Assembly (NCBI GenBank): GCA_017960525.1
Contig: JAGCZA010000138.1
Coordinates: 1-45,401, forward strand
Length of the DNA: 45,401 nt
Direction of reading: 5' to 3'
Source: Prevotella sp.
Lineage (GTDB): Bacteria; Bacteroidota; Bacteroidia; Bacteroidales; Bacteroidaceae
A model generated the notes under the pieces. It had not been told where the DNA came from, did no database searches, and worked only from the letters and a program-made list of their open reading frames with translations. The position numbers and the translations under genes are program-made. Every line of letters starts with the position of its first letter. Position 1 is the first letter of the stretch. This document shows, one piece after another, positions 4,221-32,355 of this stretch.

Positions 4221-4357
4221 ACCAACGGCGTGCGCTGGATGTGAGTAGTGAATGTTGCTGATATTTCGGCCATCCACACCATTATGATTGAACAGAAGTA
4301 AGGACTGGTAGAGATGAAAAACTAACTATCCATTGATCTGTTACATAAAAACAGACC

Positions 4358-4565
4358 TATAGCTCATTTTGCAGGCTGAAACAACTCTCAAAGTATGATA
4401 AACATTGACGTTTTCAGAAATCAAGCTACCTTGAGTTGTGAACCATCTTTACTATTGGGTTTTATAAGGCATAGCTAAAACTCTAAGAATGAATTTGTTA
4501 GACATTAGAAGAGTGGTCAACACATTCTATAGATTATAGTGTTTCAGCCTGCAAAATGAGCTATA
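4358..4565. mobile_element. 208-bp MITE-like element with 26-bp perfect terminal inverted repeats
   Basis: The left end 4358-4383 (begins TATAGCTCATTTTGCAGG) and the right end 4540-4565 are perfect inverted repeats of 26 bp. The 156 bp between them contain no ORF of note and are AT-rich; a further ACAACTC/GAGTTGT inverted repeat (4381-4387, 4433-4439) lies inside. The ends carry TATA, compatible with a TA target-site duplication of IS630/mariner-like elements, but with a palindromic end this cannot be decided. It separates two motifs that are adjacent in the copy at 2869-2930, which supports insertion. No transposase is in the window. Confidence 0.65.
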
Positions 4566-4589
4566 CGCCTAAAAACAGCGCACGAAAAA

Positions 4590-4659: not shown

Positions 4660-4725
4660 CCAAAAGTTTGCTCCGTCCAAACTATGAGTTTGGTTCGTCC
4701 AAAGTGGGAGTTTGCTCCGTCCTTT
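4660..4725 (-). repeat. 22-bp hairpin module array 1 (three units)
   Basis: Three consecutive 22-bp units read on the minus strand with cores of the type TTTGGACGAACCAAAC or TTTGGACGGAGCAAAC, each followed by linkers TCCCAC, TCATAG or TTTTGG. The array overlaps the 3' end of the Wzy-type gene and provides its last residues and its TAG stop at 4682-4684. The same modules, in the same linker order TCCCAC then TCATAG, occur at 22122-22209, and related ones at 32268-32355. Confidence 0.85.
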
Positions 4726-5929
4726 CTGAAACGGTCTCTGGCGGTGCAGACGCAGTCAGGTAGGCGGCGGCGAATAACGGCAGGAAGACGCTCTCCCAGA
4801 GCATGAAGGCAGAGGCCCAGAAGAAGAGGGCGGCCACCGTCAGGACAGCTATGAGGGCCCGCTTGTTTGGGGTGCGCATCATCGACGTGAAATAGAAAGC
4901 GAAGAGGAGCAGGATGCCCACGAGGCCGTTCTCGTAGAAGAAGACGCGGTAGCCGGCGTTGCCGAACTCCACAATCTCGAATTTGCGCCCGAAAATGATG
5001 TCGGATGAGCCGAGGAAGTTTTCGTAGTCGGCCTGAAAGCCACCTGTCACACGGTTGTCGCCCGCCATCTGCCCCTGGTCGTCGATCTCCAGGCGCAGCA
5101 TGATGAGGTCGTGCACCAGGTTGTTGCCATCGTTGTAGGTGAAGGTGACGACGGTGCACACCGCGAGCACAGCTATGGCGGCAATCATCTTGCGCACAAT
5201 CTTGCGCCCGGCTGTCCAGGCGTTGAAGACCATTATAGCTACAAGATAGACGTAAGAAGCGACTGAGAAGGAGAAGACGACAGTAACCAGCAGCACCACG
5301 TTGTACCAACGCCGCCACTGCCCGCGCTGGGTGAAGAGCAGGAAGGCGCATGCAGCACCGATGTGGCTGGGTTCCAGGAAATAGCCGTTGAAACGGGGGA
5401 AGAGGCTGAAGATGTCGTTTTCGCGTACAAGGAAGAAGAAATAGTTGAGGTAGGTGTAGTACTCGTCGAACCTCACTTCCCGGTAGGGTAGGGGGAAGCC
5501 AATCAGATAGAGGAAATGAGCGGCCAGCGAGGGGATGAGCAGCACGGCCATTGCCTTGCAGAGAAAGGTGGCCAGCCGGTCAAGGTGGGGCAGGCTGAGG
5601 CGGAAAAGGGCAAAGAAGAAAACTATGCGGAAGACCAGCATCACAAAACCGTTAACGTTGCTCCCCGTGGAGATGCGCTCGTAGATGAGTATGGCTGTAA
5701 GGGTGAGCGTGGGCAGGAGAAAGTCGGTGCGGGTGAAGATGGGCTTCGGCTGTGTGGCTGAAACGATGTAGGCGGCACCGATGCAGAGGGCGGCGGGCAG
5801 GTGGTAGAGCTTGCCTATACTCCACATAAACCACGGATTGAGCGACCCCAGGAAAGCAATGAGCGTGCCGGTGTAGAGCAGTATAGCGGTGAGCCGCTCC
5901 TTGTTGAGGATGCACAGTTCGCGAAGCAT
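4682..5929 (-). CDS. O-antigen/exopolysaccharide polymerase-like membrane protein (Wzy type)
   Basis: This 415-residue protein is highly hydrophobic, with about ten predicted membrane segments spread over residues 15-390 and a large polar loop at roughly 265-330. The segment 'GYFLEPSHIGAACAFLLF' (about residues 180-200) resembles the conserved Glu-Pro motif before a helix in O-antigen ligase/polymerase families. Such enzymes polymerise lipid-linked repeat units at the outer face of the inner membrane. The ATG at 5929 is 12 bp after the Wzz-type gene, which places it third in a Wza-Wzz-Wzy operon. The last residues (TPTLDEPNS) and the stop codon are encoded by 22-bp repeat units, so the native C-terminus may have been replaced or extended. 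No glycosyltransferase genes follow. Confidence 0.75.
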   Translation of the reverse strand: MLRELCILNKERLTAILLYTGTLIAFLGSLNPWFMWSIGKLYHLPAALCIGAAYIVSATQPKPIFTRTDFLLPTLTLTAILIYERISTGSNVNGFVMLVFRIVFFFALFRLSLPHLDRLATFLCKAMAVLLIPSLAAHFLYLIGFPLPYREVRFDEYYTYLNYFFFLVRENDIFSLFPRFNGYFLEPSHIGAACAFLLFTQRGQWRRWYNVVLLVTVVFSFSVASYVYLVAIMVFNAWTAGRKIVRKMIAAIAVLAVCTVVTFTYNDGNNLVHDLIMLRLEIDDQGQMAGDNRVTGGFQADYENFLGSSDIIFGRKFEIVEFGNAGYRVFFYENGLVGILLLFAFYFTSMMRTPNKRALIAVLTVAALFFWASAFMLWESVFLPLFAAAYLTASAPPETVSERTEQTPTLDEPNS

Positions 5930-13720: not shown

Positions 13721-14134
13721 ATGGAAAAACTGCGACATTTTGTTTCACGCTACCCCTTTTCGCTGCTCTGTGTGGCCCTGGTGTGGTATCTCTCCATCTG
13801 GTTCCGTCCGCCTGAAGAACTGCCTCTGCCCAGTTTCAATTTCCTGGACAAGTGGACCCATTTCGTGATGTACGGCGGCCTGTGCTCCGTCATTTGGATA
13901 GAGTATCTGCGCAGCCACAACCGCCTCGACGCAGCGAAGCTGTTCCTCTGGGCCTGGCTGATGCCGGCAATTATGGGGGGAGTGATTGAACTGGTGCAAG
14001 CCTACTGCACCACCACCCGCTCAGGCGAATGGCTCGACTTTGCCGCCGATACCTTTGGCTGCACGCTGGCCATAGCCGTGGGGCTGGCCTGCCAACGCTG
14101 GTTGCCACAGCGGCCTAAAAGAGACGGCGAGTAA
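13721..14134 (+). CDS. VanZ-like family membrane protein
   Basis: This 137-residue protein begins MEKLRHFVSRYPFSLL. The pattern is VanZ-like: 'LSIWFRPP', 'FLDKWTHFVMYGGLCSVIW' (the Asp-Lys-x-x-His signature), 'AWLMPAIMGGVIELVQAY' (Glu before the Gln-rich segment) and 'GEWLDFAADTFGCTLAIAVG' (the Asp-x-x-x-Asp motif), within about four membrane helices. The family is linked to teicoplanin resistance in enterococci, but the role in Bacteroidetes is unknown. ATG 13721 is chosen over an upstream in-frame TTG because of the promoter position. Its last 20 bp overlap the 3' end of the convergent outer-membrane protein gene. Confidence 0.85.
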   Translation: MEKLRHFVSRYPFSLLCVALVWYLSIWFRPPEELPLPSFNFLDKWTHFVMYGGLCSVIWIEYLRSHNRLDAAKLFLWAWLMPAIMGGVIELVQAYCTTTRSGEWLDFAADTFGCTLAIAVGLACQRWLPQRPKRDGE

Positions 14135-15245
14135 TGCTGACGCTGAACATTGGGAACACCTTCAGACCACTGATGAAGTCGATGTAGCTTCCCACCTTAC
14201 CTCCGATGCCATCGATATCTTTTGTCAGGTTGACACCGTCGTGGGTGATGACGCTGGGCGTGCCGCCCCAGAACATCACGCCGGCATCGAAGCCCACCTT
14301 CCAGCGGTCGTCACCCTTCAGCAGCCGCCCTTCGTAGCCGAAGCCCAAGTAAGGCTTGAAGGCATTTACCCGCATGTCGACTTTCACCATGCCGTCGTTG
14401 TCGGGTTCAAGCATATAGGGGGTTCCGGCCTTGTGCATCAAGTCGCCAGCCTTGTGGGCTATGATGGGATTGATCAGATTGCCATCGGCATCGTAGATGT
14501 CGCCCTCATCGTTGGGAAGGCCCACGTAGACATCTTCCGTGTAGTAGACATCGTGGTTGTAGTTGCCAACGTTTACGCCCATACGTCCTACCTCTTTAAA
14601 TTTGGACTGCAGTCTCTCCAACATTTCAGGGTCGTTGCTGCTTGCGTATTCTGGTCCCAGTACGCTCAAGTCGATAATTTTCACCTCATAGAGCAGTTCC
14701 GGCACGGCATTTATCTGGTCATTGATGAGTTTGTCATACATTTTGTTATAGGCATTGACTGCCATTAGCGCCCCCATACTCTCGGTGGCGTTGTAGGCTT
14801 TGGCAATCTTGCTGTGGCCCAGGTAGAAACCGGCGGAGACGTGCCAGTGCTTGTTGTTCTTTAGTGGATAAAAGTCTACGAGCAGATTCCAGTTCCAGAA
14901 GTTCGTGGGCTTGCCTATCATCTCCACTTCGTCCTTGACCTTCTGGCCGGTGAAGCCCTCTAACAGCCCGGAAAGCTTGGTGAACTTGGAGTGGCTGGTT
15001 TTTGGGTCGTCGCCCACCATCACATCGAAATGCATGGGCACCTCAAACGACGGCAGATAGCTGAAGCCAGTACGCACCTTCAGCCAGTTGGCCATTGGAG
15101 CCGACAGCTCCAGACCGTAGCCTGGCGTGCCTGCCTTTACACTCAGGTCCAAGTTTTTGGGAACCCACCACTTCTCGTTCTGCGCCACGGCCTGCACAGC
15201 CACCAGCGCGGCCATAGCCAGACCTGTCAGGAAACTCTTCTTCAT
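14115..15245 (-). CDS. Putative outer-membrane beta-barrel protein, unknown function
   Basis: From ATG 15245 the product has 376 residues with a Sec signal (MKKSFLTGLAMAALVAVQAVA). The mature part has alternating aromatic/hydrophobic strands such as 'FWNWNLLVDFYPL', 'WHVSAGFYLGHS', 'FKPYLGFGYEG', 'WKVGFDAGVMFWGG' and 'KVFPMFSVSITRRLF'. It ends in a C-terminal Phe, typical of outer-membrane barrels recognised by BamA. A long polar insert lies near residues 150-260. No named family is recognised. A -7 box TATCTTTG at 15269-15276 precedes it. The 3' end overlaps the convergent VanZ-like gene by 20 bp. Confidence 0.75.
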   Translation of the reverse strand: MKKSFLTGLAMAALVAVQAVAQNEKWWVPKNLDLSVKAGTPGYGLELSAPMANWLKVRTGFSYLPSFEVPMHFDVMVGDDPKTSHSKFTKLSGLLEGFTGQKVKDEVEMIGKPTNFWNWNLLVDFYPLKNNKHWHVSAGFYLGHSKIAKAYNATESMGALMAVNAYNKMYDKLINDQINAVPELLYEVKIIDLSVLGPEYASSNDPEMLERLQSKFKEVGRMGVNVGNYNHDVYYTEDVYVGLPNDEGDIYDADGNLINPIIAHKAGDLMHKAGTPYMLEPDNDGMVKVDMRVNAFKPYLGFGYEGRLLKGDDRWKVGFDAGVMFWGGTPSVITHDGVNLTKDIDGIGGKVGSYIDFISGLKVFPMFSVSITRRLF

Positions 15246-17044: not shown

Positions 17045-18913
17045 CTAATTCTTAGTGAAGCTGTGAAAATAGGTGGTGCAGACGCGCTGCCACTCGCGGG
17101 CATTTTCGAGCTGTTCGTGCAGCTTGCGGTCCACCTCCTGCCACCTCTGGTCGTCGATGTACGGGCGGGCCTGCTGCCAGATGGCCACAAAGTCTTCGAC
17201 CTCGCTGACGCCGCGCTGGTAGCGGTAGTCCAGTTCTTCCATCACCGTGCGCCCGCTGTTCAGCCGCCGTGTCCAGGGTACATGGTGGAACCAAAGCAAA
17301 AGGTTCTCCGGACAAGTGTTCACGTTGTTGTAAAGCGAATTGTAGGGTTCACGATACTGCTGCGTGGCACCAGAACCGCCTGTGCTGCGGTCGAAACCGA
17401 TGCCCTGGCGGTCGGCCTGATGGTAGTACACGGGGCACCACTCTATTGGGTAGTGGGGCTTGAAGCCGTCAGGCTCCGGCCCGTAGTGGTGGTCGAACTT
17501 GAAGATGTGGTGCAGGCCGAGCGGCATCATATAGTCCACGCAGGCTTCACGTGAGCGGAGCATCATACTGGTCAAATGGGAAATGAAAGATGAGAAATGA
17601 GAAATATGATTACCTTTAGCCTCAATTGGTTCTTGAGTGTAACCATATTTCTCATTTCTCATTTCTAATTTCTCATTCCCAAACGTCAGTCGGAGCCATT
17701 CCTCGGCTATCTCCTTGGCTGTCAGGCTGGGGTTCCACGCCAGACGGCCAAAGGCATACCAGTTGGCCTGTGCAAAGTGGTGGCCGCACCAGTTGGCATC
17801 GGCACCCACGTTGGCCACTCCGGCGATGCCCACAAGCGTAGAAGGACTGACGTAGGAGAAGAACTCCTTCCACATAGGGGCAAGGTAGACCAAATGGACG
17901 CTCTGGCCCAGATACTCCTGAGTGATTTGCAGTTCGGCCATCTGCTGGGTCTGCTTCATCTGGTCGAAGATGGGGGCGTAAGGCTCACGCGGCTGGAAGT
18001 CAAGCGGGCCGTTTTTCGACTGCAGAATGACATTCGGGCGGAACTGTCCGTCGAGTTCGGCAAACTCCGAGACGGCCTGCTTCACGCGGTCTTCACCCTT
18101 GTGCTTGGCGCCATAGACAAACGAGCGCCACATCACAATGCCACCGTAGGGCTGGAGTGCATCGGCCAGCATATTGGCTCCGTCGGCATGGGTACGCCCA
18201 TAGTCGAATGGGCCTGGCTGGCCCTCGCTGTTGGCTTTCACCAAGAAGCCGCCGAAGTCGGGGATGGCGGTGTAAATCTCCTTCACCTTCTTCTGCCACC
18301 ACTTCTTGACGCGGGGATTTAGTGGGTCGGCTGTAGGCAGGTCACCAAGAGCCTTCGGTGAACCGAAGTTCACTGAGAGATAGACGCGCAGGCCCCACGG
18401 GCGCAGCAAATCAGCCATCTCCTTCACCTTGCCGATAATGGTGCTGGTGAGCATCTTCGGCGAGGCGTTCACATTGTTGAGTACCGTGCCGTTGATACCT
18501 ATTGAGGCGCAGGCCTCGCCGTATGCGCTGATGCGCTGTTTGTCGGTATCCTTCAGGTGGGGCGCATCGTCGGTCCAGAAGATGCTTGGTCCTGCATAGC
18601 CACGCTCAATAGAGCTGTCGAGGTTGTCCCAATGGTTAAGAATACGCAGGCGGAAGGCTGGGTGGCTCTCACCTTGTTCGCCGCGTATCAGGGCGTAACG
18701 ACCGTAGAGCAGTCCCTGCTGGGTGCGCGCCTCCACAGTACGCCCTTTGATGCGATAGCCGTCATCGTCGGGCATCGTCGGGTCTATACGCAAAGTGATG
18801 TCCTTGGGCATTTCGCCGCGCAGCCACAGACGGTGGCCGTCCTCGGCATTGACATAAAGATTGAACAGCACGAACAGCAGGAAGATGCTGGTGCGAATGG
18901 TTGTGTCTTTCAT
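17045..18913 (-). CDS. GH67 alpha-glucuronidase with in-frame repeat insertion
   Basis: This 622-residue protein has a signal peptide (residues 1-23, '...FLLFVLFNLYVNA') and GH67 motifs throughout. The proposed general acid is Glu230 in 'VKANSEGQPGP'; the proposed base pair is Asp305 in 'KNGPLDFQPREP' and Glu333 in 'ELQITQEYLGQ', by analogy with Cellvibrio GlcA67A. The enzyme removes 4-O-methylglucuronic acid from the non-reducing end of xylo-oligosaccharides. At residues about 412-448, between 'EEWLRLTF' and 'SMMLRSREACVDYMMP', a low-complexity stretch (NEKLEMRNEK...ISHFSSFISH) replaces what is normally a short acidic segment; it is encoded by a heptamer-rich inverted repeat. ATG 18913 follows a -7 box by 35 bp. 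First gene of GH67-nitroreductase-BASS. Confidence 0.93.
   Translation of the reverse strand: MKDTTIRTSIFLLFVLFNLYVNAEDGHRLWLRGEMPKDITLRIDPTMPDDDGYRIKGRTVEARTQQGLLYGRYALIRGEQGESHPAFRLRILNHWDNLDSSIERGYAGPSIFWTDDAPHLKDTDKQRISAYGEACASIGINGTVLNNVNASPKMLTSTIIGKVKEMADLLRPWGLRVYLSVNFGSPKALGDLPTADPLNPRVKKWWQKKVKEIYTAIPDFGGFLVKANSEGQPGPFDYGRTHADGANMLADALQPYGGIVMWRSFVYGAKHKGEDRVKQAVSEFAELDGQFRPNVILQSKNGPLDFQPREPYAPIFDQMKQTQQMAELQITQEYLGQSVHLVYLAPMWKEFFSYVSPSTLVGIAGVANVGADANWCGHHFAQANWYAFGRLAWNPSLTAKEIAEEWLRLTFGNEKLEMRNEKYGYTQEPIEAKGNHISHFSSFISHLTSMMLRSREACVDYMMPLGLHHIFKFDHHYGPEPDGFKPHYPIEWCPVYYHQADRQGIGFDRSTGGSGATQQYREPYNSLYNNVNTCPENLLLWFHHVPWTRRLNSGRTVMEELDYRYQRGVSEVEDFVAIWQQARPYIDDQRWQEVDRKLHEQLENAREWQRVCTTYFHSFTKN
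17578..17680. repeat. 103-bp heptamer-rich inverted repeat inside the GH67 gene
   Basis: The left arm 17578-17613 and right arm 17639-17680 are near-perfect inverted repeats made of GAAATGA/TTTCTCA heptamers, both ending in TAC/GTA next to the loop. The 25-nt loop holds a nested CTCAA/TTGAG dyad. The insertion keeps the frame and adds about 35 residues to GH67. Confidence 0.85.
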
Positions 18914-18956: not shown

Positions 18957-19039
18957 ATCATTTATTTCCATTCTGCCAACTATTTATCCGCTTTTTTAAC
19001 ACTCTCTAAAATAAAAGTCGATGACACCACGTTTTTTTA

Positions 19040-19095
19040 AGTGATAAGTGATAAGTGATAAGTGGCAAGTGAAAAGTGAAAAGTGAAAAATGGGG
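19040..19095 (+). repeat. Heptamer tandem repeat (AGTGATA/AGTGAAA) carrying a start codon
   Basis: Seven heptamers in register: AGTGATA three times, AGTGGCA, and AGTGAAA three times, followed by a diverged AATGGGG. The GTG at 19076-19078 in the sixth unit is the only start codon available to the C1-like peptidase frame. Confidence 0.9.
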
Positions 19096-21401: not shown

Positions 21402-22118
21402 ATGAAGATAGCATTAATCGGCTACGGCAAGATGGGCAAGATGATCGAGGAGATAGCCCGCAGCCGGGGCCATGAAATTGTAAGTATTATCGACATCGAC
21501 AACCAAGAGGAGTTTGAGGGCGAGGCTTTCGCCAGTGCCGACGTAGCCATCGAGTTCACAGCCCCACAGGCTGCCTACGGCAACTATCTGAAAGCGTGGG
21601 CACGGGGCGTAAAAGTGGTTTCAGGCTCGACAGGCTGGATGAAGGAGCACATCAACGATGTGCGCCGGGCCTGCGAGACTGAAGGCAAGACGCTATTCTG
21701 GGCCTCGAACTTTAGCATCGGCGTGGCCATCTTCTCTGCCGTGAACCGCTATCTGGCCAAGATTATGAACCAGTTCCCGCAGTACGACGTGGAAATGGAG
21801 GAGACCCACCACGTGCATAAGCTCGACCACCCCAGCGGCACGGCCATCACCCTGGCCGAGGAAATCGTGGAGAATATCGACAGGAAGACGGCATGGGCTG
21901 AAGACACCACCGACCCCGCCTTGTTGCGCGTCGACCATATACGTCGAGGCGAAGTGCCAGGCATACACACTGTCCGTTACGACAGCGATGCCGACCTCAT
22001 CACCATCACCCACGACGCCCATTCGCGCCGGGGGTTCGCACTGGGTGCCGTGCTGGCTGCCGAGTACACCAAGGAGCACAGCGGACTGCTCACCATCAGC
22101 GACATGTTTAAGTTCTGA
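21402..22118 (+). CDS. dapB: 4-hydroxy-tetrahydrodipicolinate reductase DapB
   Basis: This 238-residue protein has an N-terminal Rossmann motif 'MKIALIGYGKMGKMIEEIA' for NAD(P)H and the family motif 'EETHHVHKLDHPSGTAITLAEEI' (about residues 131-153), with the catalytic His and Lys and the substrate-binding GTA. It catalyses the second committed step of the diaminopimelate/lysine pathway in the cytoplasm. Its length is slightly shorter than E. coli DapB (273), usual for Bacteroidetes. It is the first gene of dapB-lepB-lepB2, with a TACCTTTG promoter. The stop codon is followed after 3 bp by a four-unit 22-bp hairpin array that separates it from lepB. Confidence 0.96.
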   Translation: MKIALIGYGKMGKMIEEIARSRGHEIVSIIDIDNQEEFEGEAFASADVAIEFTAPQAAYGNYLKAWARGVKVVSGSTGWMKEHINDVRRACETEGKTLFWASNFSIGVAIFSAVNRYLAKIMNQFPQYDVEMEETHHVHKLDHPSGTAITLAEEIVENIDRKTAWAEDTTDPALLRVDHIRRGEVPGIHTVRYDSDADLITITHDAHSRRGFALGAVLAAEYTKEHSGLLTISDMFKF

Positions 22119-22121
22119 AAA

Positions 22122-22209
22122 TTTGGACGAACCAAACCTTGAGTTTGGACGAACCAAACTCCCACTTTGGACGAACCAAACTCATAGTTAGGACGAACCA
22201 AAATTATAA
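22122..22209 (+). repeat. 22-bp hairpin module array 2 (four units)
   Basis: Three units with the perfect core TTTGGACGAACCAAAC and linkers CTTGAG, TCCCAC and TCATAG are followed by a diverged fourth unit (TTAGGACGAACCAAAA). With flanking bases each can fold as GTTTGG-ACGAA-CCAAAC. It occupies almost the whole dapB-lepB spacer. An in-frame TTG at 22139 would let the repeats be read as an N-terminal LepB extension, but that is unlikely. Confidence 0.9.
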
Positions 22210-22222
22210 AGAGAAAAAACCA

Positions 22223-23761
22223 ATGAAAAAAGGAGAAAAGAAAAAGGTGAACAAGAAGATGCAGTGGCTCAAGTTCATTGTCGTGCTGGTGCTCTGGCTG
22301 CTCTTCCTCTATTGGGTGAAATCGTGGCTGGGCCTCATCGTGGTGCCCTTTATCTACGACGCCTATATCTCGAAGAAAATCAACTGGCAATGGTGGAAAG
22401 ATGCTGAAGGCCCCACACGCGCCATCATGTCGTGGGTCGATGCCATCGTCTTCGCCCTTGTTGCCGTCTATTTCATCAACCAGTTCTTCTTCCAGAACTA
22501 CGTCATCCCCAGTTCGTCGCTGGAGAAGTCGCTACTTACGGGCGACTACCTTTTTGTGTCGAAAGTGAGTTATGGCCCGCGCATCCCTGAAACACCGTTG
22601 ACGGTTCCCCTGACGCAGCACACGTTGCCCTTCGGCAACCTGAAGTCGTACATCGAATGGCCTCATTGGGATTACCGCCGTGTGAAGGGTCTGGGCAACG
22701 TTGAACTGAACGACATTGTGGTGTTCAACTATCCCGCTGGCGATACCATCATTACTGAGCCGCCCTACCAGACCTATTACTACCAGTTCTGCTACGAATT
22801 CGGACAAGGTATTTACGCACAGCTGAACCCTGAAGCCGTGCCAATTGACTCGCTCACGAAAGCCGAACAACTGAAGCGCTTCGAGGACATCTATTCCCTC
22901 GGTTCAGAGTTCATCAAGCACAATCCCGGCTACAGCCCTACTCCAGGCGGCTATCCGCTGGGGCAGGTGGACTGGCGCCCCACCGACCGGCGTGAAAACT
23001 ACGTGAAGCGCTGCGTGGGACTGCCCGGACAGACGCTAGAGATAAAAGACCGTATCGTCTATCTCGACGGCAAGCCTAACAAGGAACCCGACCAGGTGCA
23101 GTACTCCTACGAAGTGCGCTTCCACAACGGAGCGGTGATGACCGACGACTTTATGAGCGAGTATGGCATCACCTGCGAAGACCTGGGACTGAGCAACGCT
23201 GACCAAGCCTTCTTCAAGAGCAACGGACAGATAGCACTGACCGACCAGATGCGCAACACCCACTCCATCGTGCCAATGACGGCGGCCACCTATAAGGCAC
23301 TCGCTGCACGCACAGACCTGGTAGAAAGCATCAAACCAACGGTCAGCGAGCCGTCGATAGACCTCTATCCCTCAAACGGCAACACCCACTGGACACGCGA
23401 CAACTACGGCCCTGTCTGGATACCCAAAAAGGGCGAATCCATCGATTTATCGCTCGATAATATCGCCATCTATATGCGTCCCATCAAGGCTTACGAGAAA
23501 AACGAACTTGAAATACGCGACGGAAAAATCTTCATCAACGGCGAGCAGGCCACAAGTTACACGTTCAAGATGGACTACTATTGGATGATGGGCGACAACC
23601 GCCACAACTCAGCCGACTCGCGCTATTGGGGCTTCGTGCCTGAAGACCATATCGTGGGCAAGCCCATCTTCATCTGGTGGAGCAGCGACCCAGACCGCGG
23701 CCTCTTCTCTGGCGGCATACGCTGGAGCAGACTGTTCCGATTTGTCGACAACATAAAATGA
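22223..23761 (+). CDS. lepB: Signal peptidase I (S26A), long Bacteroidetes form
   Basis: This 512-residue protein has a very basic start (MKKGEKKKVNKKMQ), TM1 at about 16-45 and TM2 at about 71-92. The catalytic Ser99 is in 'IPSSSLEKSL' (box B) and Lys262 in 'NYVKRCVGLPGQ' (box D), with box E 'MMGDNRHNSADSRYWGFVPEDHIVGKP' near residues 455-485. It removes Sec signal peptides at the outer face of the inner membrane. It is longer than E. coli LepB (324) because of inserts between boxes C and D and between D and E, as in other Bacteroidales. ATG 22223 lies after the repeat array. Its stop overlaps the ATG of the next gene (ATGA at 23758-23761). Confidence 0.93.
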   Translation: MKKGEKKKVNKKMQWLKFIVVLVLWLLFLYWVKSWLGLIVVPFIYDAYISKKINWQWWKDAEGPTRAIMSWVDAIVFALVAVYFINQFFFQNYVIPSSSLEKSLLTGDYLFVSKVSYGPRIPETPLTVPLTQHTLPFGNLKSYIEWPHWDYRRVKGLGNVELNDIVVFNYPAGDTIITEPPYQTYYYQFCYEFGQGIYAQLNPEAVPIDSLTKAEQLKRFEDIYSLGSEFIKHNPGYSPTPGGYPLGQVDWRPTDRRENYVKRCVGLPGQTLEIKDRIVYLDGKPNKEPDQVQYSYEVRFHNGAVMTDDFMSEYGITCEDLGLSNADQAFFKSNGQIALTDQMRNTHSIVPMTAATYKALAARTDLVESIKPTVSEPSIDLYPSNGNTHWTRDNYGPVWIPKKGESIDLSLDNIAIYMRPIKAYEKNELEIRDGKIFINGEQATSYTFKMDYYWMMGDNRHNSADSRYWGFVPEDHIVGKPIFIWWSSDPDRGLFSGGIRWSRLFRFVDNIK

Positions 23762-24291: not shown

Positions 24292-24304
24292 GCAATTGAA
24301 CAAT

Positions 24305-24336
24305 AAAAAGCCTCCCTGTTTGTTGGGAGGCTTTTT
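24305..24336. terminator. Bidirectional intrinsic terminator
   Basis: AAAAAGCCTCCC, an 8-nt loop, and GGGAGGCTTTTT form a perfect 12-bp arm pair with A- and T-tracts. It sits between the ends of the convergent lepB2 and GH43 genes and can terminate both. Confidence 0.93.
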
Positions 24337-24340
24337 ACTA

Positions 24341-25408: not shown

Positions 25409-26539
25409 TCATCTCTCTGAATGGTTAAGCAACAGCGTCCCCTTTACCGTCAACAGATATTTCTGGCGGGGATGGTGGGGCTTGTCGGGATAAAGCAGGG
25501 TGACGAAACCCTCGGCAATGGCGGGGCTAAGATATTGACTAAGGAAATTGTCACGTCCTCTAAGGGCAAGTGCTTCCATCATTTCCCTTACCGACATCTG
25601 TTTATTGCCAATGGCTTTAACGGTGCTTAAAATGTTGACATTGTCAGTATGCAACTTGTCCTGTACTTGTCCTGTACTTGTCCTGTACTTGTCCTGTTCG
25701 ACCTTCCAATCCTCAAGTGGATTGATAACCATATAGCGGTTTCGCAGTTCGTTATTCTCGCCGAAAAGTAAATTACGGAAAAACATTTCCAAGAAACTAG
25801 TATCGCGGAAAATTTTCTTCTGGTAGTTGCTGTAGTTAGCCCTTACCAGCGCATTGCGGAAGTACCAGGAGTGCTTGGCGAAAAGGTCATTATCCACATT
25901 GAATCCCAGCGACCGCAAATACTGTATGGTGAAGACCGCCGTGGTGCGTGTGTTTCCCTCCCTGAAAGGATGAATCTGCCAAAGGCCAGAAACAAACTGG
26001 CAAAGATGGCGCACAAAGTCATCGGGCGAAAGATTTGTATGGTCGAAGTCCTTTTCTTGTTTGATGTCATAGTCGATGGCCCGACGTAGGTCTTCCCAAT
26101 TTAGGTAACTCACCGTGTCGCCTCGCAGCACCCACTCTCGCTTGGTGATATCGTATTTCCTAAGTTGTCCGGCATGTTTGAATACTCCCTCGAAGATTCT
26201 GCGATGTACCGAGATATATCCGTTGGCGTTGAAGGCAAATGTAGGATGAGACAGCACTTTCACGATGTTGGCTGAGACACGGTCGGCCTCCTCCCTTTCG
26301 TCATCGTCGGCAGTACGTACGCTCTTGTTCTCGTAATACGTCTTTATCAGTTGGCGTGCCTCGTCGATAGTGATGTCGCCCTCGATATGTCTGCGAGCGG
26401 TCTCCTGCAGATACTCCGAGGTCTTCAGCCCGTCCACGGCCTGCAAGCCGATGGCCGTGCTCCAAGCGTAAGCCGCCTCACGCCGTCCCGGTTCTCCCTG
26501 ACGGATGTACTCGTCGAAATTGATATACAGTTCGTCCAT
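25409..26539 (-). CDS. Fic/DOC family protein (predicted AMP transferase) with internal 11-bp tandem repeat
   Basis: This 376-residue protein has the Fic core motif 'HPFREGNTRT' at residues 190-199, a variant of HPFx(D/E)GNxRxxR with Thr instead of Gly after Asn and without the last Arg in its usual place. 'GQLRKYDITKREWVLRGDT' about 60 residues before it fits the flap region. N-terminal residues 38-70 ('KTSEYLQETARRHIEGDITIDEARQLIKTYYENK') look like a VbhA-type inhibitory/antitoxin helix region fused in cis. The C-terminal 80 residues resemble a winged-helix domain. Fic enzymes add AMP or other phosphate groups to target hydroxyls. Codons about 281-295 are made of four 11-bp repeats; changing their number would shift the frame. 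Only 3 bp separate it from the upstream LRR gene. Confidence 0.88.
   Translation of the reverse strand: MDELYINFDEYIRQGEPGRREAAYAWSTAIGLQAVDGLKTSEYLQETARRHIEGDITIDEARQLIKTYYENKSVRTADDDEREEADRVSANIVKVLSHPTFAFNANGYISVHRRIFEGVFKHAGQLRKYDITKREWVLRGDTVSYLNWEDLRRAIDYDIKQEKDFDHTNLSPDDFVRHLCQFVSGLWQIHPFREGNTRTTAVFTIQYLRSLGFNVDNDLFAKHSWYFRNALVRANYSNYQKKIFRDTSFLEMFFRNLLFGENNELRNRYMVINPLEDWKVEQDKYRTSTGQVQDKLHTDNVNILSTVKAIGNKQMSVREMMEALALRGRDNFLSQYLSPAIAEGFVTLLYPDKPHHPRQKYLLTVKGTLLLNHSER
25654..25697. repeat. Perfect 11-bp x4 tandem repeat (ACTTGTCCTGT) in the Fic gene
   Basis: Four identical copies of ACTTGTCCTGT occupy 25654-25697. The unit is not a multiple of three, so gain or loss of one copy shifts the Fic reading frame upstream of its C-terminal domain. 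It is translated here as '...DKYRTSTGQVQDK...'. Confidence 0.95.
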
Positions 26540-26542
26540 TTT

Positions 26543-28132
26543 TCACTCAATCCTTGACTTGGTTGACATAATGGTGAGGATGGTAGCAATATCGGCCACA
26601 TCGACACCATTATCGTTGTTTACGTCCCCCCTTATTCCAATGCCGTTTGCTGAGAGTTGGATTTCGGCAGAGGCAACGTCTGAGTTAGCACAGCCTTCCT
26701 TCGTGGCATATACCGAAATGGTGTAAGAACCACCTATTGGAATGCCATTGCCAGTACCAGATTTGGAGTCGTTGCTCTTAATGTCATATACATAGTCCAC
26801 GCCATCGGTCTCGCAACTGAATTCCAGTTTTCCATCCACAAAGGTGATAGTCGGCTTGGCACACTTCGGCGTTTCTGGCATTATCCCGTCCAGGCTCACG
26901 ATTGTTCCAAAGTTTTTCCAAGGTTCCGTTGCCTTATAGGCATCAATAGAGGTCTCAGGCACATACAGCGTGGCATATTCGATGTAGGATCCATCGAAAA
27001 TATCAGCCCAAGAATTGCTCCGAGTAATAATTTCCTCCATACCCGGCACTTTCTCTGCATAGCAATATACGTCAGTCAGTTCGAGGCAGTTGGCAAAAGC
27101 TTGACTGCCTATAGTCTTCACACCACTACCTATAGTTACGGTGGTCAGACTGTTGCAATAACAGAAAGCATAAGGGCCTATACTTGTAACGCTGCTCGGA
27201 ATTATGATGGAGGACAGGCTGTTGCAACGAATGAAAGCATGGTTTCCTATGCTTGTAATACTGTTAGGAATCGTGACGGAGGACAGACCGCTGCACCCCT
27301 GGAAAGCACCACCTCCTATAGTCATAACGCCATTCTGAATCACGACAGAGGTCAAGCTAATGCAATATCCAAAAGAGTTTCCCGCTATACTCGTCACACT
27401 GCCTGGAATCGTAATAGAGGTAAGGCTACTACAATTGGCAAAAGCATTTTCTCCTATACTCGTCAGGCCGTCTTGGAACATAATGGAGGTTAGGCCACTA
27501 CAATTTTGGAAAGCACCGCTCCCCATTTTTGTCACACTACCAGGAATTGTGATAGTGGTCAGACTACTGCAATCAGAGAAGGCAACACTTCCTATGTTCG
27601 TCACGGTGTTGGGAATTGTGATGGAAGTCAGGCCACTACAACCACCGAAAGCACCATTTCCAATACTTATCACCCCACTTGGTATTGTGATGGAGGTCAG
27701 ACCACTACAACACCAAAAAGCACCGTTTCCTATACTCGTCACGCTGCCAGAAATTATGACAGAAATAAGGTTGATACAACCAGAGAAAGCGTTTTCTCCA
27801 ATACTCGTTACACTACCTGGAATTGAGGCGGAAGTTAGCTCCCAGCAACTGGAGAAAGCATCATTCCCTATCTTTGTCACACTATAGGTAGCACTTTCAT
27901 ACTCTACTGTTTCGGGAATCACGATGTTACCACTATACTTGATGTTGTTCTTGTACTGGATAACTTGAGCAACTTTTCCCTTAGTAATAATCTCATACCA
28001 CAGGCCACCGATTTCTGCCTCTACGGCAAAGGCACTTGCTGTCACTGACAGCATCAGTACGAGTAGTATAATCTGTTTATTAGCTGTCATGGACAAGATG
28101 GTGGCAAAATGGAAGAATATAACCTTTTTCAT
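26543..28132 (-). CDS. BspA-type leucine-rich-repeat surface protein with dockerin-like tail
   Basis: This 529-residue protein has a signal peptide; the hydrophobic stretch 'IILLVLMLSVTASAFA' (21-36) suggests the true start may be Met16 rather than Met1. Residues 85-360 are twelve 23-residue LRR_5 repeats of the form 'VTSIGxxAFxxCSxLTSITIPGS', as in BspA/TpLRR adhesins. A region near residues 370-420 ('LYVPETSIDAYKATEPWKNFGTIV') is the standard BspA cap, followed by a beta-rich domain and a C-terminal dockerin-like calcium motif 'GDVNNDNGVDVADIATILTIM'. It is probably a surface binding protein. It is placed between AlbA_2 (15 bp upstream) and Fic (3 bp downstream), which is an unusual operon setting. 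Confidence 0.9.
   Translation of the reverse strand: MKKVIFFHFATILSMTANKQIILLVLMLSVTASAFAVEAEIGGLWYEIITKGKVAQVIQYKNNIKYSGNIVIPETVEYESATYSVTKIGNDAFSSCWELTSASIPGSVTSIGENAFSGCINLISVIISGSVTSIGNGAFWCCSGLTSITIPSGVISIGNGAFGGCSGLTSITIPNTVTNIGSVAFSDCSSLTTITIPGSVTKMGSGAFQNCSGLTSIMFQDGLTSIGENAFANCSSLTSITIPGSVTSIAGNSFGYCISLTSVVIQNGVMTIGGGAFQGCSGLSSVTIPNSITSIGNHAFIRCNSLSSIIIPSSVTSIGPYAFCYCNSLTTVTIGSGVKTIGSQAFANCLELTDVYCYAEKVPGMEEIITRSNSWADIFDGSYIEYATLYVPETSIDAYKATEPWKNFGTIVSLDGIMPETPKCAKPTITFVDGKLEFSCETDGVDYVYDIKSNDSKSGTGNGIPIGGSYTISVYATKEGCANSDVASAEIQLSANGIGIRGDVNNDNGVDVADIATILTIMSTKSRIE
27053..27880 (-). repeat. Twelve 69-bp LRR-coding repeats
   Basis: Degenerate 69-bp units in frame encode twelve 23-residue LRR_5 repeats of the BspA-like protein. 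DNA identity between units is visible (for example repeated TCACACT/GGAATTGTGA segments), so recombination between copies could change repeat number without shifting the frame. Confidence 0.85.
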
Positions 28133-32267: not shown

Positions 32268-32355
32268 AGTTAGAAGGTATATAACTCATAGTTAGAAGGC
32301 ATCTAACCCATAGTTAGAAGGTATATAACTCCTGGTTTGGACGAACCAAACTCTT
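32268..32355. repeat. 22-bp hairpin module array 3 (four units, two core types)
   Basis: On the plus strand three units have cores GTTAGAAGGTATATAAC, GTTAGAAGGCATCTAAC and GTTAGAAGGTATATAAC, and the fourth has GTTTGGACGAACCAAAC. All are spaced by exactly 22 bp and joined by 5-bp linkers such as TCATA and TCCTG. The last unit overlaps the stop codon of the SGNH gene (32354-32356). The two core types keep the same 6-5-6 dyad layout. Confidence 0.88.

Follow-up and report, generated by a model that had tools for sequence, protein, structure and literature searches.

Palindrome ladders with a 22-bp pitch in the intergenic DNA of Prevotella-type bacteria, tentatively read as DNA-level platforms at gene boundaries

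A class of helically phased palindrome ladders is present in Prevotella-type bacteria. Each ladder is an intergenic array of palindromic cores repeated at 22-bp spacing, and the geometry is common to much of the sampled genus and to other Prevotellaceae, with letters that are species-specific and turning over. That related species have the same geometry in different letters suggests that spacing and mirror symmetry outweigh sequence. The reading that we prefer, although we would place it somewhat below even, is that the ladders work at the DNA level, as platforms at gene boundaries for an abundant protein that bends or wraps them.

The earlier note on this DNA had described three arrays of 22-bp units in the window (the whole stretch of 45,401 nucleotides that was analysed), and all three were recovered with every core at 22-bp spacing (Table 1). 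The 6-5-6 dyad layout that it gave for the units was also borne out, since the window contains 10 pairs of such dyads located 22 bp apart (each dyad with at least 5 of 6 base pairs) whereas 50 first-order Markov simulations gave 1.3 on average and never more than 4. The main array begins 2 bp past the dapB stop codon, and at the mosaic array the periodicity extends back to about 32247. In the minus-strand array two of the three cores are of the ...GGACGGAGCAAAC type, and the array overlaps the 3' end of a minus-strand ORF (4682-5929). This ORF enters the array, which supplies its stop codon (window 4682-4684); arrays may in this way provide stop codons or lengthen C-termini.

Table 1. Arrays, cores and genes adjoining the main array in the window.
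Feature	Coordinates	Strand	Remarks
Main array, four palindromic 17-bp cores at 22-bp spacing	22121..22203	+	between dapB and lepB
Main-array cores	22121-22137, 22143-22159, 22165-22181, 22187-22203	+	
Array of three cores	4666..4726 (4666-4682, 4688-4704, 4710-4726)	-	
Mosaic array, three second-family cores and one GTTTGGACGAACCAAAC core, one 22-bp register	32269..32351	+	
Second-family cores, GTTAGAAGG(T/C)AT(A/C)TAAC	32269-32285, 32291-32307, 32313-32329	+	
GTTTGGACGAACCAAAC core of mosaic array	32335-32351	+	
dapB (4-hydroxy-tetrahydrodipicolinate reductase)	21402..22118	+	TIGR00036, 141 bits; upstream of main array
lepB (signal peptidase I)	22223..23761	+	TIGR02227, 116 bits; downstream of main array

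The whole genome to which the window belongs (3.97 Mb in 146 contigs, 94% complete) was searched for the 15-bp core TTTGGACGAACCAAA with at most 2 mismatches, and 493 matches were obtained compared to 5 for the reversed control. The earlier note had proposed such a search and held that a lack of other arrays in the genome would speak for chance local duplication; given these numbers, that objection fails. The core was at control level in the 59 other genomes searched, 35 of which belong to the same genus. Arrays were characterised in 40 stretches and the window (754,776 bases, from contigs picked for having core matches), with genes called by a simple in-house ORF and codon model and not by a published caller. 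Among the 47 arrays in this sample 26 had three units, 14 had four, two had five, two had two and three were single units, and the unit spacing was exactly 22 bp in 101 of 104 cases. All except one of the 47 arrays were located outside called genes, the remaining one being called within a gene. The number of arrays in the genome was estimated as about 170 (493 matches divided by 2.87 close units per array) and could be up to about 250 by sampled density (the first 20 stretches, 359,645 bases, contained 22 arrays). The flanks of 44 arrays begin with A/T and show a weak but symmetric AT/GC wave that extends about 20 bp outwards, and there was no excess of complementary flanks around the arrays (4.17 vs 4.38 shuffled). 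At one locus (L070) two near-identical arrays (13739-13800 and 15058-15119) are separated by 1.3 kb and have similar right flanks, flanking sequence being part of this local duplication.

Among 101 linkers in the window genome there were 43 distinct 7-mers, and for 68 of the 101 the reverse complement was also present in the set. A second family (GTTAGAAGGTATATAAC and variants) gave 39 two-unit matches (control 0), and its units are linked by many of the 7-mers also used in the main family, which agrees with the earlier description of the linkers as a small shared vocabulary. The two families join in one register in the mosaic array of the window, and lone TTGCCGTAA-type units are found within three arrays (L078, L091, L107). 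Shared linkers, mixed families and lone units indicate that cores and linkers act as exchangeable modules. Given this modularity, the genome-wide occurrence, the strict 22-bp register and the recurring dyad layout, the view that the units are not a random satellite was upheld.

Compensatory changes in the stems had been suggested from the unit GTTAGA-AGGCA-TCTAAC. This unit is real, but it is a single one and both its neighbours are GTTAGA-AGGTA-TATAAC, mismatched at pair 5-13, and such examples are rare. Of the 39 first-listed second-family units, 28 were unpaired at pair 5-13, 9 had T-A there and 2 had G-C. In the main family (151 units) pair 4-14 was T-A in 121 and A-A in 27 units, and pair 6-12 was G-G in 9; the stem is broken by common variants. 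Within-family compensatory change is weak in the main family, with 3 doubly changed pairs vs 73 one-sided changes (permutation test, P = 0.06 with all units and 0.26 with unique units only; fraction paired, P = 0.03 and 0.26, respectively). The TCTAGA units of Xylanibacter brevis had 7 doubly changed pairs (P = 0.01 for all and 0.02 for unique units; fraction paired, P = 0.002 and 0.01), which is better support than in the window genome but still modest. One array built on weak matches (L233) was excluded from the covariation and row-pairing tests. After these permutation tests, within-family covariation was given up as the chief argument.

With respect to neighbouring genes, 28 window-genome arrays were co-directional, 14 divergent and 2 convergent, and 2 were at stretch edges. 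This mix matches that of the intergenic regions of at least 60 bases (163 co-directional, 58 divergent and 15 convergent). Within their spacers, co-directional arrays were closer to the upstream stop than expected from a uniform distribution in the window genome (n = 26, P = 6×10−4) as well as in X. brevis (n = 17, P = 4×10−4), and the divergent arrays of the window genome were nearer the middle of the spacer.

The ladders of X. brevis, the most informative of the cases, allow cores and linkers to be compared in different letters. Eleven arrays comprised 61 units of TTCTA-N5-TAGAA, and 44 of 50 spacings were 22 bp, the others being 33, 33, 44, 77, 54 and 114 (the last two adjoin weak matches). 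The linkers were nearly random (39 of 44 distinct), with cores kept and spacing held at 22; recent tandem duplication would be expected to leave linkers similar, and neutral decay would not be expected to spare the cores. Of five regions aligned as 22-bp rows, four extend over about 13 to 17 rows, along which the family changes (AAAAG..CTTTT, AATAG..CTATT, TTCTA..TAGAA and TTTTG..CAAAA, sometimes with an 11-bp step) and the register is kept; the fifth (L239) had no odd-centred dyads in the chosen register. In rows outside the TCTAGA units 2.99 of 5 positions were paired, compared to 2.55 when arms were permuted across ladders (0 of 5000 permutations reached 2.99) and 2.78 when they were permuted within a ladder (40 of 5000).

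The distances between dyad centres were examined by autocorrelation in several genomes, of which X. brevis and P. ihumii were represented by one genome each, with six stretches of each selected for TTTGGN5CCAAA. In intergenic DNA of the window genome, the pooled genus and X. brevis, centres recur at 11, 22, 33, 44 and 55 bp. The counts at 11, 22, 33 and 44 bp were 256, 199, 156 and 100 in the window genome (background 40), 185, 153, 118 and 113 in 21 pooled same-genus genomes (background 60.5) and 119, 104, 88 and 83 in 20 further X. brevis stretches (background 33.5), or 103, 88, 79 and 69 (background 31) when the two stretches holding TTTGGN5CCAAA were left out. In P. ihumii the centres recur mainly at 11. 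Coding DNA showed no peaks at multiples of 11 bp, and 14 genomes from other families in the order gave counts barely above background (59, 54, 65 and 53 vs 47.5). Among periods 8 to 15 only 11 stands out in the 21 genomes of the genus (ratio 2.14, next best 1.00; 1.83-2.23 when one genome at a time was left out). In the other families the period-11 ratio was 1.13 and dropped to 1.00 without one genome, and one such genome (G045) shows 99 vs 61. Several same-genus genomes show no grid within the 7-40 kb sampled of each. A periodic palindrome always has a second dyad at half its period, so the peaks at 11 and 33 follow from that at 22, and only the period and the palindromy count as independent facts. 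AT peaks were located 5-7 bp on either side of the dyad centres in the window-genome, genus and X. brevis sets, and in the window genome also at 2 and 9 bp. The two-turn phasing proposed for the units in the window is strengthened by these other genomes, in which dyad centres lie on an 11-bp grid with different sequences.

Intergenic arrays had a period of 22 or 44 in 43 of 61 cases in the window genome, in 11 of 13 in the six X. brevis stretches selected for TTTGGN5CCAAA and in 18 of 29 in the twenty other X. brevis stretches (16 of 27 without the two holding TTTGGN5CCAAA). The corresponding number was 13 of 52 in the 21 same-genus genomes, 8 of which had such an array within the 7 to 40 kb sampled of each, 2 of 9 in P. 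ihumii, where four more had period 23, and 1 of 6 in the 14 genomes of other families. Two P. ihumii loci (L150, L155) carry arrays of a AAACATATATGTTT palindrome with period 23 and not 22. When periods below 15 bp and the main family were left out (49 and 49 arrays), 25 of the 49 period-22/44 arrays were palindromic at no more than 5% of column permutations, compared to 9 of 49 with other periods (P = 6×10−4), and the other 24 had no significant odd-centred dyad. A Mann-Whitney P of 3×10−7 for palindromy was set aside as biased by period. In a strict test that required arms differing entirely, the counts at 22 bp did not exceed background in the two X. brevis sets (25 vs 26; 6 vs 6) and barely did so in the genus (56 vs 43) and the window genome (32 vs 30.5), and those at 44 bp were 38 vs 26 and 15 vs 6, 50 vs 43, and 26 vs 30.5, respectively. 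Given the weak result at 22 bp, the case for a register shared by different palindromes is carried mainly by the written-out X. brevis rows and the row-pairing permutation.

The exact two-unit pattern had no matches across 84,980 species genomes, from which the window's own genome was possibly left out. Two copies of TTTGG-N5-CCAAA at 22-bp spacing were found in 10 stretches among these genomes, none with the ACGAA loop. Seven of the 10 were in six Prevotellaceae/Bacteroidales genomes, several with further units in register, and three were in Clostridia/Acidaminococcaceae; the closest architectural matches of the window genome are named Prevotellaceae. In one stretch (L083, RUG571) the TTTGG-type array is closely followed by a further 22-bp array (1832-1914), made of a different palindrome (AGCACGCCCGTGCTGAATATCA). 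Another (L089, 2928-3030) carries tandem TTTGGCCCAACCAAAC-type units spaced by 22 and 21 bp; its contig is labelled an Acidaminococcaceae MAG, so either such arrays are more widely distributed or the contig was misbinned.

Other repeats were also seen in the window. A MITE-like element (4353-4570), with 31-nt arms that are 94% complementary and 156 nt apart, is located about 100 bp from the array at 4666, and the genome contains 7 matches to its 25-nt end, of which 6 are exact and two lie near contig starts. Tandem arrays based on 7 bp are present at 1310-1366, 17574-17605, 17647-17677 and 19038-19086, and arrays with multiple-of-7 periods (15 of 52 in the genus sample) form a second kind of spacer satellite. 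Four perfect 11-bp units (ACTTGTCCTGT), equal to the ladder half-period, are found at 25654-25697, and two 69-bp repeat blocks (27138-27505) lie within a minus-strand ORF (26543-28132).

The nearest described elements are REP/BIME, BrickBuilt and PINSR. REPs are short intergenic palindromes of high copy number, often clustered and species-dependent, and in the available part of their description they carry an invariant, unpaired tetranucleotide (GTAG or CGTC) at one end, with a REP-associated tyrosine transposase flanked by repeats for the GTAG type only (PMC3733652). CGTC-tagged palindromes have been reported in Bacteroidetes. With 493 cores, and 46 of the 47 sampled arrays outside called genes, the ladders resemble REPs as high-copy extragenic palindromes. 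They differ in their direct orientation, their strict 22-bp pitch and the occurrence of different sequences in one register, and no tag was seen in 101 linkers, where the four bases ending at the first base of the core vary (ATAG, CCAG, GGAG, TGAG, GTAG and others). BrickBuilt of Porphyromonas gingivalis, a minisatellite/MITE of 23-nt units in 19 copies, belongs to the same order and is likewise intergenic and species-restricted with near-equal unit length, but it is described with a leader, a tail and IS5-like terminal inverted repeats, and 22-nt tandem repeats were earlier reported in P. gingivalis W83 (PMC4596501; both compared with the ladders by description only). The ladders lack such ends, as no fixed inverted repeat of MITE type was found in the flanks of 44 arrays, and are present in far more copies. 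The PINSR of Prevotella intermedia/nigrescens is also lineage-specific and intergenic (177 and 184 copies in two strains) but, compared by description, it is a single 188-bp repeat that the available text does not present as a 22-bp array (PMC4755523). AT/GC content phased at about one helical turn is known from the E. coli gyrase motif and from class A flexible patterns of 11 bp, the latter being loose, found in coding and non-coding DNA alike and not called palindromic in the accessible description (PMC6379681, PMC1242344), whereas the ladder grid is exact and intergenic. CRISPR was rejected because the linkers are only 5-7 nt (depending on how the core is cut) and in the window genome form a small vocabulary, and are not unique spacers of repeat length. 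Plasmid iterons are direct repeats with a pitch of about 22 bp, two turns apart and bound on one face of the DNA; to our knowledge they are confined to origins and are not palindromic, and the ladder loci, unlike them, are dispersed. No description of palindromic or 22-bp repeats of this kind in Prevotella or Bacteroidetes was found in the open-licence papers searched; elements defined by geometry would escape homology searches, and this may explain the absence of a published description.

A ladder is a short intergenic stretch with a dyad on an exact 11-bp grid, each 22-bp unit containing two dyads, with AT-rich arms and centres and linkers richer in G+C. We propose that the grid is read as DNA. 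The strand indifference, exact register, AT arms, AT/GC wave, gene-boundary placement and free letters fit best with a bent or wrapped DNA platform. The wrapping protein would be the reader, with DNA gyrase, an enzyme that favours long DNA in which G/C content is phased, as the leading candidate and a nucleoid-associated dimer as an alternative. One sequence family has been amplified to roughly 170-250 loci in the window genome, units presumably being copied between loci by recombination or a mobilising activity. The candidacy of gyrase is an analogy with E. coli and not a test, likened by description: with flanks included, the alternation in ladders of 3-4 units spans about 100-125 bp at an 11-bp pitch. 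One paper (PMC7537859) reportedly argues that a 10-11-bp periodicity need not imply bending. In the parts of the E. coli gyrase study that are available, the enzyme recognises a motif that spans about 130 bp and varies in G/C content in a phased manner, BIME-2 repeats are enriched in its cleavage sites, and the phasing is 10 bp and described without palindromy, as compared to exactly 11 bp in the ladders; motif scores were not higher downstream of transcription units, so that placement of gyrase there is not hard-wired in E. coli (PMC6379681). More broadly, it is conceivable, though again at less than even probability, that this is a class of bacterial elements conserved in geometry and not in sequence, in which letters are replaced in each species in layers while register and symmetry are kept.

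It is also possible, although we consider it rather unlikely, that the arrays are selfish REP- or MITE-like palindromic repeats spread between intergenic sites by a mobilisation that requires hairpins, in which case the species differences would be successive bursts of new families and the 3'-end location would reflect tolerance only. The burst in one genome, at background in the 59 others, and the dapB-lepB locus are better explained in this way than by a DNA platform: the array past the dapB stop was present in none of 24 readable stretches of relatives in which dapB was found (240 bases past the stop; 18 of the same genus and 6 of other families), 5 further loci that yielded no dapB being outside this count. 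A 93% identical MFS transporter locus in another genome (G013) is without the array, but since its upstream gene is different it is uninformative on array conservation. Copying between loci is also indicated by two X. brevis arrays (L224 16929-17010 and L226 685-766) with an identical array start and 22 identical upstream bases, a dispersed copy of a ladder segment, and by two window-genome arrays (L073, L078) that have two of three linkers in common, and the match of neighbour-gene orientations with the intergenic make-up is in line with the selfish reading. A selfish copy would, however, bring its linkers along, and those of X. brevis are nearly random at fixed length; different palindromes in one register within an array are left unexplained as well. 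Mobilisation by a REP transposase found no support in the window genome, where a search gave a single weak partial Y1_Tnp match (32 bits, positions 27-105 of 121; a miss is possible in a genome that is 94% complete) with no core in its 2,989-base locus, and phage carriage was rejected when the exact two-unit pattern had no matches in one scan of viral contigs. The structural and the selfish reading may both be partly true, the ladder being a scaffold that is also copied between loci.

Less probable still is that the arrays act as RNA hairpins in 3' untranslated regions, stabilising mRNA ends or ending transcription, as in the RNA hairpin reading of the earlier note. The bias towards the upstream stop, the convergent placement of 9 of the 28 X. 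brevis arrays, the modest X. brevis covariation and the RNA fold of the main array (-24.9 kcal/mol, z -4.8) are in line with this, but the fold is even stronger as DNA (z -7.2), and strong folding as both is expected of any palindrome array. Array strand was unrelated to gene strand (17 co-directional window-genome arrays on the strand of the gene and 11 on the opposite one) and sense-strand mismatches showed no clear excess of G-T over A-C (15 vs 10 and 23 vs 30), and for these two reasons the RNA reading is not favoured. A terminator scan flagged the core at 32334-32352, but it gave 9 sites vs 9.4 in shuffles with a much stronger hairpin at 24304-24337, and Rfam gave no match above gathering score (6 sources, 145,401 bases). 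The flanks first looked terminator-like, but an intrinsic terminator was rejected with 14 of 47 window-genome arrays between divergent genes; X. brevis (2 of 28) fits better. The remaining explanation, functionless slippage minisatellites in which palindromes and the period of 22 are accidents of the founder units, we regard as very improbable. Multiple-of-7 periods in genus spacer arrays, the near-perfect copies in some arrays and the 24 of 49 period-22/44 arrays that are not significantly palindromic speak for it. On the other side, 11 is the sole preferred dyad spacing over 21 genomes, X. brevis has conserved its cores and not its linkers at fixed length, and adjacent linkers resemble each other little more than random pairs do (0.60 vs 0.58 identical in the window genome and 0.42 vs 0.33 in X. 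brevis), and plain minisatellites are already disfavoured.

If the platform reading is true, Prevotella-type bacteria carry genome-wide DNA elements that are defined by helical phasing and symmetry and not by sequence. Such ladders would constitute a natural system for DNA wrapping, supercoiling and insulation at gene boundaries, and the reading is testable in a named strain, X. brevis ATCC 19188 (Prevotellaceae). They would also lend themselves to studying how such scaffolds get rewritten between species, and would parallel, in bacteria, the turnover of satellites on a fixed structural scaffold.
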